Origin: Calditrichales bacterium MX18-03
GTDB lineage: Bacteria > Bacillota > Clostridia > Lutisporales > Lutisporaceae
Reading direction: 5' to 3'
NCBI GenBank assembly: GCA_021083345.1
Contig: JAJGRE010000001.1
Coordinates: 1,426,001-1,490,000 of the forward strand
Length of the DNA: 64,000 bases
Part shown: positions 1-41,885 of the stretch, piece by piece
Layout of the letters: each line of letters starts with the position of its first letter
Numbering within the stretch: position 1 is the first letter of the stretch
Notes under the pieces: model-generated
The model's database searches: none
Told to the model about the DNA's origin: nothing
The model's input: only the letters and a program-made list of their open reading frames with translations
Made by a program: the position numbers and the translations under genes

Positions 1-270
1 GTCACTGCCCATCAGTACCTGTCCCATCACCTGGAGAAAAACCGGCAGGCTCTCGCCAGCCCCGAAGGTATCCTTTGCCTGTACGGCATAGCCGTCCACT
101 GTCGACCTGTCAAAATCAGGAATGTCCACCCTGGAAGCTATGTCCTCATAAGCGGTCCTGTCCATAGCGTCCGTTATATGAACTTCTTCGAATCCGACAT
201 GTACATCTGCAAAGTGCAAGTCCATTTTTTCCTTAACCTGGTCGACAGTATCAACCTGCAAAAGCTTCAT
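1..270 (-). CDS. moeA: Molybdopterin molybdotransferase MoeA (N-terminal part, runs off left edge)
   Basis: MoeA inserts molybdate (or tungstate) into adenylated molybdopterin in the cytoplasm, the last common step of Mo/W cofactor synthesis. Only the first 90 residues lie in the window. They contain the family signature around residues 49-63 (IPDFDRSTVDGYAV), the conserved loop that opens MoeA domain III. The ATG at 268-270 is preceded by AAGGAGG at ideal spacing. It lies about 100 bp downstream of tupA on the same strand, so it is probably co-transcribed with the tungstate transporter. The C-terminal part is outside the window, so completeness cannot be judged. Confidence 0.9.
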   Translation of the reverse strand, partial: MKLLQVDTVDQVKEKMDLHFADVHVGFEEVHITDAMDRTAYEDIASRVDIPDFDRSTVDGYAVQAKDTFGAGESLPVFLQVMGQVLMGSD

Positions 271-373
271 TGGCCGTCCTCCTTACAAGAAAATGCAACG
301 CTACCTGTTTTCATATTATTTGTCATTACTTAAAAATAATTCTACCGCATCAACCTGTCATTAGCAATGCGGC

Positions 374-1474
374 TTATTTCGCATCCGGCATAAACAGTTG
401 CTGCCCGTTCTTCTTGTAGTCTGCGATCATCTTCTGGCCTTCGTCAGAAGTGATGAAGTAGATAAAGGCATTGGCTGCATTGTGATGAATATTGGGGTAC
501 TTTTCAGGGTTGACAGCAATAACGCCATAGGGGTTGAAGAGGATCGGATCGCCTTGTAGTACGACCTTCAAGTTGACCTTATCCTGGAAAGCAAACCAGG
601 TGCCGCTGTCCACCAAAGTGTATGCACCCATTTCACCGGCCATCATCAGCGTATCCCCCATGCCCTGTCCGGACTCCATGTACCAGGCTTCGCCCTGAGG
701 TTTGATGCCGTATGTGCTCCAGATCGCCAATTCTTTCTTGTGGGTTCCGGATTGGTCGCCGCGGGATACGAACTTGGCTTTGGATGAAGCAACCTTAGCC
801 ATTGCTTCCTGCACGGTCTTCAAATCGGCTACCCCCACCGGATCATCCTTGGGACCCACAAGGAAGAAGAAGTTGTACATGACATCCTTCCTGTTTACGC
901 CAAAGCCGCTGGCTACAAACTCATCCTCTGACTTTCTGGCATGTACCAGAATGACATCCGCGTCACCGCGTTTTCCCATTTCAATCGCTTCGCCTGTACC
1001 CACCGAAACCACTTTGGTGGTTACGCCGTATTTCTTGTCAAAGGCAGGCATCAGTACGTCCAGCAATCCGGTGTCCCTTGTGCTTGTAGTGGTTGCCAAT
1101 ACCATGGTTGGTTCCGCCTTGAAGACGGGTTCTGCTGCGGGCTGCACTGCAGGTTGGTTTTCTGCTTTGGCTGCAGCCTGAGCCAGCATCAGGTATTTAG
1201 CGTAAACATAGCCGACTTTTCCATCGCTGAGCTTTACCTGATACCAGCCACCCACTTTGTTCAGTACCGTCACTTCGGTGTTCCTGACCAGAACCTTTGC
1301 AATCTTGCCCGTCATACCGGCAGCTTCCCTGAAGTTGAGAGCTGTGGTTGTTTTTGCTGTATCTCCAATATTGACGGGTGCTCCTTCCGAAAAGACCATG
1401 GAAGCTGTGAACACGATCATCAGCAGAACCGTTGCCAGAAAGAGAATCTTTTTTCTTTCCGCACCTTTTTTCAT
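374..1474 (-). CDS. tupA: Tungstate ABC transporter substrate-binding protein TupA with N-terminal SH3 domain
   Basis: Extracytoplasmic binding protein that delivers tungstate to TupBC. Residues about 9-30 form a signal/anchor segment (no clear lipobox Cys). Residues about 40-97 are a bacterial SH3 (SH3b) domain (ALNFREAAGMTGKIAKVL, WYQVKLSDGKVGYVYAKYL). From about 124 the TupA-type domain begins with the anion-binding TTTSTRDTGLLD motif and continues with the typical RGDQSGTHKKE and WYMESGQGMG segments. The SH3 domain is extra compared with usual TupA (about 270 residues) and may hold the protein at the cell wall. The start has AAGGAGG. It lies 12 bp after tupC. Molybdate cannot be excluded as ligand, but the signature favours tungstate. 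Confidence 0.88.
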   Translation of the reverse strand: MKKGAERKKILFLATVLLMIVFTASMVFSEGAPVNIGDTAKTTTALNFREAAGMTGKIAKVLVRNTEVTVLNKVGGWYQVKLSDGKVGYVYAKYLMLAQAAAKAENQPAVQPAAEPVFKAEPTMVLATTTSTRDTGLLDVLMPAFDKKYGVTTKVVSVGTGEAIEMGKRGDADVILVHARKSEDEFVASGFGVNRKDVMYNFFFLVGPKDDPVGVADLKTVQEAMAKVASSKAKFVSRGDQSGTHKKELAIWSTYGIKPQGEAWYMESGQGMGDTLMMAGEMGAYTLVDSGTWFAFQDKVNLKVVLQGDPILFNPYGVIAVNPEKYPNIHHNAANAFIYFITSDEGQKMIADYKKNGQQLFMPDAK

Positions 1475-1486
1475 ACTTACGCCTCC

Positions 1487-2218
1487 TTAATAGATCATGA
1501 CCCCTGCAATAAAGTCCCGTGTTTTGACCTCTGCGGGATTTTCAAACATCCTTGCCGCTTCCCCTTTTTCAATAATTCCACCTTCCAGCATGAAGACGGC
1601 GTCATCCGCCAGCCTTTTGGCCTGGTGCATATTGTGGGTCACAATGACAATGGTCGTACTGTATTCGGACTTGAAATAATCCAGCAGCTTTTCAATCATC
1701 GCCACATTGGCAGGATCCAGGTTGGTTGTAGGCTCATCCAGAAAAAGAACACGGGGCTTATAGATCATGGCCCTGGCCAAAGCCAGCCGCTGGGCCTCTC
1801 CCCCGGACAGCGTCGCCGCCCTTTGCTTCTGCTGCTCACGCAGTCCCACAAGCTCCAGCATCTCTGCGACCTGTTTTTCCGTGCTTTGCTTGCTTTGTCC
1901 TCTCAATCTGAGGCCATAGGCCGCATTGTCATAAACAGAGCTGTTGAAAACCACTGGTTTCTGGAAGACCATTGCCAGCTCCCGCCTTACAGCCATATCG
2001 GACTTGCTCTTCCAAATGCTTTTTCCGGCATAGAGGACATTCCCTGATGTAGCCGCTTCCAAGCCATTGAGAATCATGAGCAGCGTGCTCTTTCCGGCGC
2101 CGCTGGGACCGATCACCGCCGTTGTCCTTCCTCCATGAAGCTCCAAGCTTTCAATATTCAGAACACGCTTGCTTCCATACGACTTAACCAGATCCTTCAC
2201 TTCAAACAAAACCGCCAT
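1487..2218 (-). CDS. tupC: Tungstate ABC transporter ATP-binding protein TupC
   Basis: Cytoplasmic ATPase of the tungstate importer, 243 residues, the normal size. Walker A is GPSGAGKST at 37-45, the Q-loop lies in MVFQKPVVF, the ABC signature is LSGGEAQRLALARA near 136, Walker B is VLFLDEPTTNLDP near 157 and the switch His is in VIVTHNM. Its ATG overlaps the tupB stop by one base (TAATG), which implies translational coupling. Tungstate specificity is inferred from the adjacent TupA and TupB. Confidence 0.9.
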   Translation of the reverse strand: MAVLFEVKDLVKSYGSKRVLNIESLELHGGRTTAVIGPSGAGKSTLLMILNGLEAATSGNVLYAGKSIWKSKSDMAVRRELAMVFQKPVVFNSSVYDNAAYGLRLRGQSKQSTEKQVAEMLELVGLREQQKQRAATLSGGEAQRLALARAMIYKPRVLFLDEPTTNLDPANVAMIEKLLDYFKSEYSTTIVIVTHNMHQAKRLADDAVFMLEGGIIEKGEAARMFENPAEVKTRDFIAGVMIY

Positions 2219-2898
2219 TACGATTCCAGCCCCCTTCCACGGCGCAGGAAATCCACACCGGAATTGATGATGAAGGAAATCAGCAGCAGGATCATACCTA
2301 AGGCCAGGGCATTCTGGAATTCTCCCATTCCCTTATGCAGGGCGATGGCTGTAGTCATCACACGGGTCTGGAACCGGATATTGCCGCCCACCATCATCAC
2401 GGCACCAACCTCCGCCATCAGCCTTCCGAAGGCCACGATGACTGATGCACCGATGCCGTACCGGGCTTCTCTGACGATGGTCCATGCCAGCTGACCGGGT
2501 GTTGCACCAAGGCTGACGGCCGTATGCCGGATATGCTTATCCACGCCCTGTACCGCAACAATGGTCAAGCCTGTAATAATGGGAGCTGCCAGCAATACCT
2601 GCGCTATCAGCATCGCTGTGGGCGTAAAAAGGAGGCGCAGATCCCCGAAAAGACCCATCTGGTTCGAAAGCAGCACATAAACCGTCAAACCGATAACCAC
2701 CGGCGGAACCCCCATGAAGGTATTGACCACGTTGACCAGAAGGACCTTTCCGGGAAACCGGTTCATCGCTATCAGGACCCCAATGGGCACACCAATGATG
2801 AAGCTGATCAGCACAGCAGCTGTTGACACCCTGATGGATAAAAAGATGATGCCGTAAAGCTCAGGATCAAAGGAAACAAGCAGTTGTACGGCTTGCAA
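2218..2898 (-). CDS. tupB: Tungstate ABC transporter permease TupB
   Basis: Inner-membrane permease with about five hydrophobic segments and a binding-protein-dependent inner-membrane signature (EAxxxG-type loop, SLGATPGQLAWTIVREARYGI). The start is uncertain. The coordinates use a TTG at 2898 that has only a weak AAAGAAG upstream. In the same frame a CTG at 2920-2922 stands 6 bases after a strong GGGGGGA, and starting there restores the family-like N-terminus (GYFKEAFLQAVQLLVSFDPELYG). No in-frame ATG or GTG exists between the SD and the TTG. A non-AUG CTG start or a sequence error is therefore possible. Transcription is probably controlled by the leader at 2955-3121. Confidence 0.85.
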   Translation of the reverse strand: MQAVQLLVSFDPELYGIIFLSIRVSTAAVLISFIIGVPIGVLIAMNRFPGKVLLVNVVNTFMGVPPVVIGLTVYVLLSNQMGLFGDLRLLFTPTAMLIAQVLLAAPIITGLTIVAVQGVDKHIRHTAVSLGATPGQLAWTIVREARYGIGASVIVAFGRLMAEVGAVMMVGGNIRFQTRVMTTAIALHKGMGEFQNALALGMILLLISFIINSGVDFLRRGRGLES

Positions 2899-2954
2899 AA
2901 AGGCTTCTTTGAAATAACCCAGAACGCATCCCCCCTTGAAAGCATGGTTATCAA

Positions 2955-2983
2955 TAAAAAAGACAATCCTGAAAGGATTGTCT
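2955..2983 (-). terminator. Intrinsic terminator in the tupB leader
   Basis: A perfect 10-bp stem (2961-2970 with 2974-2983), triloop GAA, followed on the minus strand by six T. It sits between the structured leader and tupB, only about 35-60 bases before the start codon. This is the position of a transcription-attenuation terminator rather than an operon end. Confidence 0.85.
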
Positions 2984-3121
2984 CGAGAGGTCTAATAATT
3001 TTCCTTTCCAAACACGGGAGGTGCAGAGATTTCTCTCGACACCCTTAGGGCACGCCCTAGGTTATGGCTTCATAGAGTCCCTTGTGCGGGAACCGTTAGA
3101 AACGACAACTCGGAAAACGCA
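2984..3121 (-). promoter_or_regulatory. Candidate Moco/Tuco-type riboswitch upstream of the tupBCA operon
   Basis: Read on the minus strand, this leader can fold as a closing stem (TTTTCC near 3116 with GGAAAA near 3000), a stem CCTAGGG/CCCTAAGG (about 3042-3062), and a hairpin GAGA-GAAA-TCTC with a GNRA tetraloop (about 3027-3039) enclosed by GTG/CAC. It carries a TTTCCGAG segment at the 5' side and CACCTCCC near the 3' side. A perfect intrinsic terminator follows immediately. Known Mo/W cofactor riboswitches have a GNRA-bearing multistem aptamer and often precede tungstate or molybdate uptake genes. The assignment comes from fold, position and context, not from a covariance-model match. Confidence 0.55.
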
Positions 3122-3141
3122 ATATTCACTTTTCTAATAGC

Positions 3142-3750
3142 CTACTTCTTAAATATACCAAAAGGTTTGCCCACTGGCAAGAAGATTCTGCCGAAATGGG
3201 TGTTGAGGACGACAGCTGCTGAGCCGTAGAAGGAAACCAAAGCGATGATCAGTTCTGCATAAGCTGCCATCATGTGCATCGGCTCCTTGGCAATGCCGAA
3301 GGTGCTGAGCGAAAGACCGATGAACAGGACATCGATAAGGACGAATATGATAAATAATACCTTGTTTGTTTCCATGGAGCCGATTGTCATATAGACTGAG
3401 AAAATAAGGTACCCTACGAAAGCGAAGCCCAACTGGTTGATGTCTGCTGTTGCTGCTAGCTTCTCTCCGAAGAAGCCCAGCTTCACCAGCCAGGTTGTTG
3501 CTACGCCCAGCCAGAAGAAGGCATAGCCGCCGAATGCTGTCGTTCCAAAAATGTTGTTGCGCTTTGAGTCTTCGATGCATGCGAAGAGTTGTGCGAAAGC
3601 GCCCAGGAAAATCGCCCACGGAATAACCAACGTTGTATCATGTGTGATGCCAAGCTTCTGTGAGGATGCAACCAGCGTCACCATCGCCAATCCGAAAAGT
3701 CCCAGTGCGGAAGGATCGGCATTCGTGATCTTTACATTCTGTGTTTCCAT
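3142..3750 (-). CDS. satP: GPR1/FUN34/SatP-family acetate transporter
   Basis: Membrane protein of the AceTr family, which moves acetate (and succinate) across the cytoplasmic membrane, probably as a hexameric channel/symporter. At 202 residues it has the family's six-helix layout, and its N-terminal NADPSALGLFGLAM segment corresponds to the NPAPLGL signature. The ATG at 3748-3750 has GGAGG seven bases upstream; an upstream in-frame TTG overlaps that SD and is rejected. Its stop lies about 20 bases before the tup leader begins. It sits beside a formate channel, consistent with export or uptake of C1/C2 acids. Confidence 0.88.
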   Translation of the reverse strand: METQNVKITNADPSALGLFGLAMVTLVASSQKLGITHDTTLVIPWAIFLGAFAQLFACIEDSKRNNIFGTTAFGGYAFFWLGVATTWLVKLGFFGEKLAATADINQLGFAFVGYLIFSVYMTIGSMETNKVLFIIFVLIDVLFIGLSLSTFGIAKEPMHMMAAYAELIIALVSFYGSAAVVLNTHFGRIFLPVGKPFGIFKK

Positions 3751-34345: not shown

Positions 34346-34384
34346 AAGAAAAAAGGCATTACCCTCATGTCCGGTATTGCCTTC
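34346..34384 (-). terminator. Terminator overlapping the end of the 34.4-kb unknown gene
   Basis: Stem AAGGCAATACC/GGTAATGCCTT with one mismatch (about 34353-34384), then TTTTTT on the minus strand. The stop codon at 34365-34367 lies in the loop/stem, an arrangement suggesting that transcription on this strand ends here. Confidence 0.7.
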
Positions 34385-34751
34385 TGATTCGCTTTATATT
34401 CTCGTTATATATTTTAGGTAAATACTCCAGCAACAGGAAGGTCTTGAGCTTTGCTATCTTGCCCAGCAGGTAGTCCACTGTTATGCCTTCATAGCTGTTT
34501 TCAATGGTTTTATCGCTACTTTTTTCTGTATAAAGACCTGTATGTACACCATCTTCCATGCCGATGAACAAGTTGGGATAATAAAAACGGGGTGCGAGTT
34601 GCTCTGTAGTGAAGGTCTGCTGGAATCCGTCAGAAGCAGCAAAGGTGATAGACGCCTGCATAGATTCATCTTCATGCTGCGTCATAATAAAAAGCAGTCT
34701 CCGAGGAAACTGCCATAGCCAACGTATTGCATCAAAAGCAACATGCTGCAA
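34365..34751 (-). CDS. Small protein of unknown function
   Basis: About 128 residues; I do not recognise a family. It has a hydrophobic/aromatic N-terminus (AIRWLWQFPRRLLFIM), a mixed middle (FYYPNLFIGMEDGVHTGLYT) and a basic helical tail (LLLEYLPKIYNENIKRIRRQYRT). The start is unclear: TTG at 34751 follows AAAGGA, and an internal ATG at about 34687 is possible. A terminator at its end supports transcription on this strand. It could be a decayed gene, since about 200 bp upstream hold no coding sequence. Confidence 0.4.
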   Translation of the reverse strand: MQHVAFDAIRWLWQFPRRLLFIMTQHEDESMQASITFAASDGFQQTFTTEQLAPRFYYPNLFIGMEDGVHTGLYTEKSSDKTIENSYEGITVDYLLGKIAKLKTFLLLEYLPKIYNENIKRIRRQYRT

Positions 34752-34937
34752 TTGTTTCCTTTCCAATCAATGCCAAGGGAGGCACAAGCGTTTCCACTTA
34801 TACCCTAACGGTTAACGCTCATGCCGTCGTAATAGGATCGCGGCGGTTTAGAGCCATTAACTCGGAAACAAGGATATTCAATTCTTATTACTATATTAAC
34901 TATTTCTTTAACAAATTTCAATGGGCAAAAACATAAC

Positions 34938-39610: not shown

Positions 39611-39901
39611 TTATCCGCCGATCCACTCCGACAGCCTGTCGAATACCGATTGGTCATAATCATACTTCAGAGAAACCTCCAGCACATCATAAAGCTTTTG
39701 CAGCTGCTTGACGATCTGCTCAAGCCTGTCGTCGTCATTTACCAGCAGATACATCCGGCTCCTGGTTCCATCTCCAATGCGCCCGCACAGAATGCCTTCC
39801 AGGTTGAAAGCCCGCCTTGAGAACAGACCTGTAATATGCGACATGACACCTGCATGGTTCTGTACAGTCAGTTCAATGATGACACTATCCTTATCTTTCA
39901 T
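39611..39901 (-). CDS. ilvN: Acetolactate synthase small (regulatory) subunit
   Basis: A 96-residue ACT-domain regulator, the short E. coli IlvN type. VQNHAGVMSHITGLFSRRAFNLEGILCGRIGDGTRSRMYL is the typical valine-binding ACT sequence; there is no C-terminal extension. It confers valine feedback inhibition on the large subunit. Its ATG lies 11 bases inside ilvB, with GGAGG in the ilvB coding sequence, so the two are coupled. Confidence 0.92.
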   Translation of the reverse strand: MKDKDSVIIELTVQNHAGVMSHITGLFSRRAFNLEGILCGRIGDGTRSRMYLLVNDDDRLEQIVKQLQKLYDVLEVSLKYDYDQSVFDRLSEWIGG

Positions 39902-41570
39902 AAGTCTCGCCTCCTACCATATCATGATTGGCTGCGCCCGGCGGCACAATGGGGATGACGTTTTCCTTCGGGGGAATCGGTATGTTGACAAATGCCGGTC
40001 CTGAATGGGACAATGCCTGCCGAAGGACTTCCTCCATATTGCCGCCTCTACCGGCATCGTAGGCCGTGATGCCGAAGCCGCGGCTGATCATGGCGAAATC
40101 GGGATTTGTCACAAATTCCGAAGCAATGTAGTGACCGTCATAGAACATTTCCTGCTGCTGCCTCACCAGCCCCAGATGCCCATTGTTCAGAACGGCTACC
40201 GTTACATTCAGCTGCAGGTCTGCCAGTGTTGCCAGCTCCTGTATGTTCATCAGGATGGATCCGTCGCCGCTGAAGCAGATGACCCTTTTATCCGGATTGG
40301 CTATGGCAGCCCCGATTGCTGCCGGCAGACCGAAGCCCATGGTTCCCAATCCGCCTGAGGTGAGCAGTGTCCTGGGAAGCTTGAAGGGGTATCCCTGAGC
40401 CACCCACATCTGGTGCTGCCCTACATCCGTGGTGATGATGGCATCCTCCGGGGCCAGGCTGCCGATCAGCTTGATGATTTCAATGGGATGGCGGCCGCTG
40501 CCGCTTGGCATAAAAAATGGAAATGCTGCCTTCATGCTTTCGATCTGCGTGATCCATTCTTTCCGTTCATCTCTTTTGACCAGCGGAAGCATTTTTCCCA
40601 AAACCGCACCGATATCTCCTGTGATGGATATATCCGCTTTCCTTATCTTATTGATTTCCGCCTCATCAATATCGATGTGCACAATCCTGGCATTCCTGCA
40701 GAAGCCGGAGACTTTGCCTGTAGCCCTATCGTCGAACCGGACCCCGAAGGCCAGCAGAAGGTCGGTTTCATTCAGCAGATAGTTGGTATACCGGGTGCCG
40801 TGCATGCCCACCATGCCAAGATTCAAGGGATCGTCTCCCCTCAGGCACCCCAATCCCATCAGTGTGGATGTGACCGGTATGCTGTTCTTCCCTGCAAATT
40901 CCCTTAGAGCCCGGTAGGCATTGGAGTGTACGATCCCGCCGCCGATATACAACAGCGGCTTTTTTGCTTCATTGATCAGCGTGGCTGTCTGTTCAATATC
41001 CGCCATGCAGATTTCAACATGGCTTTTTTCTTTTGCTGCCGCAGGTTCAGGCCATGCTTCCAGCTCCACCATCCCCAGCTGCACGTCCTTGGGAATATCC
41101 ACCACAACCGGTCCCGGCCTTCCGCCTTCGGCTATCCTGAAGGCTTCAGGCACCACCTGCAGCAATTCCTCCGGTGAACGCACCAGGAAATTGTGTTTTG
41201 TGATGGGGATCGTCAGACCGTAGGTGTCTACTTCCTGAAAAGCATCGGTTCCCACCAGTCCATAGGAAACCTGCCCTGTTACTGCTACCATGGGAATGGA
41301 ATCCTGCTTGGCATCGGCGATTGCCGTCAAAAGATTGGTCAGTCCGGGTCCCGAGGTTGCAAAGCATACCGCCGCACGGCCTGTGGTACGGGCTATGCCT
41401 TGGGCGATAAAACCGGCTCCTTGCTCATGCCTGGCCAGGACGTGCCGGATGCTGCTTTTGCTGAGGGCATCATAAAGAGGCAGGTTTGCACCCCCCGGAA
41501 TGCCTGAAATGACCTCGATCCCCTGTCTTTCCAACAGTTTGATTGTGATTTCCGCTCCGTTAACCTTCAT
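39891..41570 (-). CDS. ilvB: Acetolactate synthase large (catalytic) subunit
   Basis: TPP- and FAD-dependent enzyme that condenses two pyruvates to acetolactate, or pyruvate with 2-oxobutyrate, the first common step to Val, Leu and Ile. At 559 residues it is of usual length. The N-terminal catalytic Glu lies in ARHEQGAGFIAQGIAR, the TPP-binding GDGSILMNIQELATLADLQLNVTVAVLNN lies near 428 and the IGGGIV/FAD-domain region is in the middle. ATG with GGAGGAG. Controlled by the T-box leader upstream. Confidence 0.95.
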   Translation of the reverse strand: MKVNGAEITIKLLERQGIEVISGIPGGANLPLYDALSKSSIRHVLARHEQGAGFIAQGIARTTGRAAVCFATSGPGLTNLLTAIADAKQDSIPMVAVTGQVSYGLVGTDAFQEVDTYGLTIPITKHNFLVRSPEELLQVVPEAFRIAEGGRPGPVVVDIPKDVQLGMVELEAWPEPAAAKEKSHVEICMADIEQTATLINEAKKPLLYIGGGIVHSNAYRALREFAGKNSIPVTSTLMGLGCLRGDDPLNLGMVGMHGTRYTNYLLNETDLLLAFGVRFDDRATGKVSGFCRNARIVHIDIDEAEINKIRKADISITGDIGAVLGKMLPLVKRDERKEWITQIESMKAAFPFFMPSGSGRHPIEIIKLIGSLAPEDAIITTDVGQHQMWVAQGYPFKLPRTLLTSGGLGTMGFGLPAAIGAAIANPDKRVICFSGDGSILMNIQELATLADLQLNVTVAVLNNGHLGLVRQQQEMFYDGHYIASEFVTNPDFAMISRGFGITAYDAGRGGNMEEVLRQALSHSGPAFVNIPIPPKENVIPIVPPGAANHDMVGGETYER

Positions 41571-41605: not shown

Positions 41606-41885
41606 AAAAAACCCCTCATCCGTTAGGACGAAGGGTTATCTCCGTGGTACCACCTACATTTGCACATATCCGAAGGCTATGCGCACACTCATCAAGTACG
41701 GGCTCTCGCCGATACTCTTCCCTGCTAACGGTGGGTGCCGTCGGAATCTACTCAAGTCTTTCTTTCCAAAGCTCTGGGGCTACCTTCGATATATCCGTCA
41801 CGGGGAATTTCCACCGGCATCCCCTCTCTATGCATCAGGTATATATTTACTCCTCCCCGTCATGGCCTTTGCTGTATTATGTATG
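41606..41885 (-). promoter_or_regulatory. T-box riboswitch leader of ilvBN, apparent Val (GUA) specifier
   Basis: Read on the minus strand. Stem I starts near 41870 (CAAAG pairing with CTTTG; GGGG with CCCC) and has the 5' AGTA of the specifier loop, distal-loop sequences GAGAGGGGATGCCGGTGG, and the 3' loop strand GAA-G-GTA-G. By comparison with glyQS T-boxes this places GTA (Val) as specifier codon near 41785. The T-box sequence GGTGGTACC lies at 41646-41654. A 12-bp terminator stem with T-run (41610-41636) follows. Uncharged tRNA-Val should permit read-through into ilvB. A register one base off would read GGT, so the codon is not certain. Confidence 0.93.

Follow-up and report, generated by a model that had tools for sequence, protein, structure and literature searches.

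A predicted Moco RNA OFF switch with a P3 stem precedes a tungstate-uptake operon in Calditrichales bacterium MX18-03

The leader of the operon for tungstate uptake and cofactor synthesis in Calditrichales bacterium MX18-03 is very probably a cis-acting Moco RNA that works as a transcription-terminating OFF switch. Judged by its sequence, the RNA is an ordinary member of the known family RF01055, and in this lineage its P3 stem, read against gene content, appears neither to mark the metal nor to track the metal genes. On balance we favour the view that P3 is no discriminator between the molybdenum and tungsten cofactors, that the RNA either reads a feature shared by the two forms of the cofactor or takes its choice of metal from elsewhere, and that Moco and Wco labels based on P3 need revision. 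Within the literature that we searched, two points are new, namely evidence that the presence of P3 is not tied to the metal genes and an explicit, co-varying antiterminator for the Moco RNA family; that the family regulates molybdate or tungstate transporters is already on record (PMC9971707, PMC10043782).

How an RNA might distinguish the molybdenum from the tungsten cofactor has been a question since 2008; the instability of the ligand stands in the way of binding assays, and P3 was the only structural handle offered. Regulski et al. (2008) placed P3-bearing RNAs exclusively with molybdopterin or Moco genes and assigned RNAs without P3 to tungsten; they found that Moco represses through this RNA family in E. 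coli, but the unstable cofactor kept them from demonstrating binding directly for the family (PMC2408646). The labels Moco and Wco remain in use (PMC9481103).

Identity of the leader and its operon

The analysed stretch of DNA (the window, 64,000 nt, to which all plain coordinates refer) contains the following features of the leader and operon.

3152–3180, minus strand: promoter-like site TTGCCA-17-TATATT, second hexamer preceded by TG (consensus scan, 10/12 matches)
2985–3127, minus strand: Moco RNA aptamer (RF01055), P1–P5, P3 present (cmscan and covariation in 15 leaders)
3112–3118, minus strand: P1 5′ strand GUUUUCC, partner 3004–2998 (MFE fold)
3046–3059, minus strand: P3 hairpin UAGGG-CGUG-CCCUA, 5 bp (cmscan alignments, MFE fold)
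3019–3044, minus strand: P4 with GAAA tetraloop and CACCUCCC strand (cmscan alignment, MFE fold)
2998–3009, minus strand: contested strand GGAAAGGAAAAU, made up of the 3′ strand of P1 and the sequence on its 5′ side (complementarity to the terminator arm)
2955–2984, minus strand: intrinsic terminator GAGACAAUCCU-UUC-AGGAUUGUCUU and U-run, hairpin 2984–2960 (fold, terminator scan)
2971–2977, minus strand: antiterminator partner UCCUUUC, in the terminator 5′ arm and loop (complementarity, conserved in relatives)
2218–2922, minus strand: tupB, tungstate ABC permease (NF041773, 164 bits, under the strict NCBIfam equivalog cut-off of 320)
1487–2218, minus strand: tupC, ABC ATPase (homology; order tupB-tupC-tupA common to relatives)
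374–1474, minus strand: tupA, binding protein with ATTTS motif (NF041772, 245 bits, under the strict NCBIfam equivalog cut-off of 400)
1–271, minus strand: start of moeA (MoeA_N, MoCF_biosynth, MoeA_C; ORFs and Pfam scan, L154)

A preliminary description of this DNA had proposed a Moco/Tuco-type riboswitch upstream of tupB, and both homology and covariation bear this out. The leader matched RF01055 over the full length of the model (positions 1–135 of 135) at 3127–2985 on the minus strand, essentially where the element had been placed; the match scored 73.8 bits (gathering score 36), with an E value of 5.9e-16 for the 64-kb window. The MFE fold consists of P1 (3118–3112/3004–2998), a capped P2 (3109–3099/3071–3061), P3 (3059–3055/3050–3046) and P4 with its GAAA loop (3044–3034/3029–3019), followed by P5 and the terminator; the closing stem and the GAAA-capped hairpin of the preliminary description are thus present, but its two internal hairpins are actually four, P2–P5. 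At −57.6 kcal/mol the fold lies well below the shuffled sequences (−42.5 ± 4.0; z = −3.8), none of 200 being as low. Covariation, which had been named as a check, was strong in 15 orthologous leaders: standard pairs occupied 96.5% of the paired cells and both sides changed in 18 of the 43 pairs, values that 0 of 500 shuffles reached, and slid controls dropped to 38–53%. One pair of P1 varies on both sides; the P5 pairs counted are invariant in the 15 leaders, so P5 itself lies outside the covariation support. The leader has the conserved P1, P2, P4 and P5 of the family with a GNRA loop on P4, covariation for P1, P2 and P4, an expression platform made of a terminator and a competing antiterminator, and a Mo/W gene context, with tupBCA-moeA-moeA/PBP-moaA-MOSC downstream.

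These seven genes form an operon that continues past the window edge (ORFs and Pfam scan), beyond which come a moeA gene that carries a PBP-like domain as a fusion, then moaA and the MOSC gene. The longest ATG/GTG/TTG ORF of tupB begins at 2898; the start is probably CTG at 2922 (MGYFKEAFLQAVQLL...; 2920–2922, minus strand), because in the alignment relatives begin MEYFVEAF where tupB reads CTG-GGT-TAT-TTC-AAA-GAA-GCC-TTT. In TupA (374–1474, minus strand), an extra SH3-like domain separates the signal peptide from the binding domain; a similar N-terminal extension occurs in one relative described below (G008) and is missing in another (G002).

A conserved antiterminator competes with P1 and the terminator

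The promoter-like site lies directly 5′ of the aptamer, and relatives have TATAAT-like boxes near the aptamer start. A transcript start downstream of 2984, which had been named as evidence against the switch, is unlikely because these predicted sites (3180–3152 in the window) sit upstream of the aptamer. The terminator stands directly after the aptamer and before tupB; described earlier as a perfect 10-bp hairpin with a triloop, it was found to have 11 pairs, a UUC triloop (hairpin 2984–2960) and a U-run. Its CAAUCC/GGAUUG stem is kept in orthologous leaders, and among the family's tupBCA leaders it takes the form CAAUCC-UUUY-GGAUUG or a near variant.

The GAAAGGA strand (3008–3002), which is invariant and forms the 3′ side of P1, complements UCCUUUC (2977–2971), in what the sequences indicate to be the arrangement of a classical antiterminator. 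A second, overlapping pairing of UGUUUGGAAAGG (3014–3003) with CCUCUCGAGACA (2990–2979) appears in folds of transcripts ending within the terminator. Another candidate, in which the spacer CUCUCGAGAC would pair with the 5′ strand of P4 (GUGUCGAGAG), was spotted by eye and dropped; GAAAGGA/UCCUUUC is the pairing that relatives conserve.

Across the 34 leaders possessing a terminator, the P1 3′ strand scored on average 15.96 against its own terminator arm and 8.11 against 47 terminators of the same loci that served as controls, and the own arm outscored every control in 26 leaders but not in the other 8. When P1 strands were swapped between leaders, the mean fit fell to 14.70 ± 0.21 and 0 of 1,000 exchanges were as good; therefore, the P1 3′ strand and the terminator arm co-vary, as in the antiterminator pairs GGAAAGGAG/CUCCUUUUU, AGGAAAC/GUUUCCU and GAAAGGA/UCCUUUC. 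When transcripts ended at the terminator loop, the antiterminator was highly probable in most leaders, with a probability of 0.47 in the MX18-03 tupB leader, whose P1-open fold equals the best fold in stability (−44.1 for both). At full length, P1 and the terminator dominated this leader (0.96 and 1.00) and were ahead in most tup leaders; the unliganded full-length fold of three other leaders (L008, L010 and L058) favoured the antiterminator. Because the MX18-03 leader, unliganded and at full length, favours the terminator, its ligand-free ON state would depend on kinetics.

We propose that, when cofactor is low, the invariant P1 3′ strand GGAAAGGA would pair with UCCUUUC, so that the terminator would be blocked and the operon transcribed. 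Once finished cofactor is bound, P1 would close and occupy GGAAAGGA, the terminator would fold and transcription would end before tupB. In MX18-03 the ligand would most likely be the tungsten form of the finished cofactor. Ligand binding, the identity of the ligand and the direction of control are what we infer here, the OFF direction because of the competition between antiterminator and terminator and the direction known from E. coli (PMC2408646). Covariation, the terminator and the conserved antiterminator back the transcriptional OFF architecture of the preliminary description in its structural parts, and control of tungstate uptake is backed by homology (tupBCA downstream) and by the same antiterminator. 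Direct sensing of tungstate, which had also been entertained, found no support; it is the finished cofactor to which the family has been linked (PMC2408646). A conserved antiterminator would give the RF01055 family an explicit termination mechanism.

P3 and the metal genes

The tupB leader has the P3 that defines the Moco sub-type and that the Tuco (Wco) sub-type lacks. Its first genes are tupBCA, and not only the molybdopterin or Moco genes to which the Moco sub-type is confined according to the 2008 paper (PMC2408646). Within the same genome, cmscan alignments show P3 in the tup leader and none in the two other Moco RNAs. Among the 48 TupB lineages whose leader is a Moco RNA, reading of the sequence between P2 and P4 assigned P3 to 17, two of them borderline with a P3 of only 3 bp (L064 and L065), and no P3 to 31. 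The TupB tree requires at least nine changes of P3 state, five of which are forced by well-supported branches; P3 has been gained or lost among orthologous tup leaders.

Sister species in genus g3 of the same family provide a natural experiment, in which metal genes are swapped under a constant switch. Four genomes share the arrangement FocA, Moco RNA, terminator. In two of them, G002 (99% complete) and G008 (80%), tupBCA-moeA-moeA/PBP-moaA-MOSC stands behind the RNA, AOR-family matches number 4 and 2, respectively, and ModA was not found. In G015 (95%) and G018 (97%), moaA stands directly behind the RNA, the tup-moeA-moeA block is gone and MoeA genes lie elsewhere; TupA and AOR were not found in these two genomes, and ModA and ModB score over their cut-offs. 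The four RNAs share a like P3 (GAUGGG..CCCAU) and are 83–92% identical, and no position of the aptamer core splits tungsten-type from molybdenum-type genomes, metal use being inferred here from genes alone. The positions that do separate them are column 7, in the 5′ flank, for all five sequences including that of MX18-03, and one loop position within the genus only, which the MX18-03 sequence does not follow. With four such similar RNAs and no separating core position, the switch was therefore retained through an exchange of the metal genes. RNAs without P3 are present in G015 and G018 as well (L032 and L030), so each form is represented in tungsten-type and molybdenum-type genomes alike. Tup and Mod proteins may take either oxyanion as cargo.

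Alternative explanations

The alternative that survives best is that the 2008 rule holds, P3 denoting a Moco sensor, so that molybdenum cofactor represses tungstate uptake, either as cross-control or because Tup feeds molybdate too. We consider this unlikely, although the tupB leader does have P3, the P3-bearing RNA of E. coli ignores tungstate (PMC2408646), and the MX18-03 genome keeps several kinds of molybdopterin enzymes; a tungsten operon under P3 would indeed be odd if P3 truly meant Moco, which also counts against the OFF-switch reading. That genome, however, has seven AFOR_C matches (tungsten-type aldehyde:ferredoxin oxidoreductase family), one TupA and a modABC that is in fragments (C10:33900–35200; L159 1430–2690): ModA is a C-terminal piece with 77 aligned residues, ModB has lost 25 internal residues and ModC retains only its C-terminal half. 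The syntenic P3-bearing RNAs that stand with tup and AOR in some sister genomes and with mod in others, and the presence of P3 in 17 of 48 tup lineages, likewise argue against a molybdenum-specific P3.

A separate variant class that binds some other ligand, such as free tungstate or metal-free molybdopterin, is improbable in our assessment. A P3 that does not follow metal genes would suit a sensor of the pterin part, but the RNA aligns to RF01055 at every position and scores highly, it retains the canonical core and the GAAA loop, and no sequence feature separates the tupB leader from the family; the variant class raised in the preliminary description is therefore unnecessary. That the element is no more than a terminator for the acetate-transporter gene upstream, preceded by a fortuitous fold, is scarcely credible: the terminator, 158 nt past that gene's stop codon (3142), could act for both, but the covariance evidence already refutes this reading, with the 73.8-bit family match and covariation joined by the repeated tup association across phyla and by relatives that keep the leader behind another upstream gene (FocA).

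Distribution and other Moco RNAs

Moco RNAs were found in 25 of the 61 genomes searched, most relatives being draft assemblies from metagenomes, and mostly in the window's own family, which includes Lutispora saccharofermentans; tup genes lie behind at least 14 of them. About half of 80 TupB loci from named genomes have an RF01055 match, which in nearly every case shares the strand of tupA or tupB and lies upstream of that gene, and the association of Moco RNA with tup recurs across phyla.

Five tup leaders, all with P3, read ACGGU ... GCCCCCC or similar (L089, L093, L103, L109 and L137) where AGGGU ... GCCUCCC is found elsewhere. In Geosporobacter ferrireducens a Clostridiales-2 sRNA (L064 2307–2389, 82.4 bits) lies between Moco RNA and tupB; a match to this sRNA in the window (3155–3237) was dismissed at 12.9 bits against a gathering score of 58.6.

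Other Moco RNAs precede AOR-type genes (L045, L048, L050, L051, L053 and L055), and have a terminator-like hairpin, its 5′ arm starting inside the P1 3′ strand (GGAGUCCAUCUG ... CAGAUGGACUUUU). Ligand binding would break this hairpin, making these RNAs candidate ON switches for cofactor-using enzymes. In relatives, Moco RNAs without P3 also precede FeFe-hydrogenase-like genes (L008, L027, L029, L030 and L058). FeFe-hydrogenases require neither molybdenum nor tungsten. A hydrogenase association has been reported for tandem Wco switches (PMC9481103).

The two further Moco RNAs of the MX18-03 genome both lack P3. One (window 34740–34879, minus strand; 65.7 bits) has its own terminator and is followed by a short ORF (34365–34766) that appears to be a remnant, a longer protein being intact behind the equivalent RNA in a relative (L022). 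The other (C7:1062832–1062952; L002 1501–1621; 70.5 bits), followed by a terminator, is an apparent orphan switch with no intact Mo/W gene seen behind it. The window also contains a T-box leader (41621–41872, minus strand; 116.9 bits) preceding an acetolactate-synthase-like gene (39891–41570).

Comparison with known systems

The tupB leader resembles RF01055 (PMC2408646) in its stems P1–P5, the GAAA tetraloop on P4, the CCGAG / CUAA / AUG / AGGG / CCUCCC / GGAAAGG core, its site before Mo/W genes and a terminator platform as in some members; it has P3 yet precedes a tungstate importer, against the exclusivity given there. With the ‘Tuco’ or ‘Wco’ sub-type (PMC2408646; PMC9481103) it shares the gene context of tup and AOR, and of FeFe-hydrogenase in relatives, but its P3 has 5 bp where the sub-type has none. 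With the E. coli moaA leader it shares the aptamer family and the use of the P1 3′ side as the contested strand; in that leader P1 holds the ribosome-binding site (PMC2408646), whereas in the tupB leader the strand would feed the choice between antiterminator and terminator.
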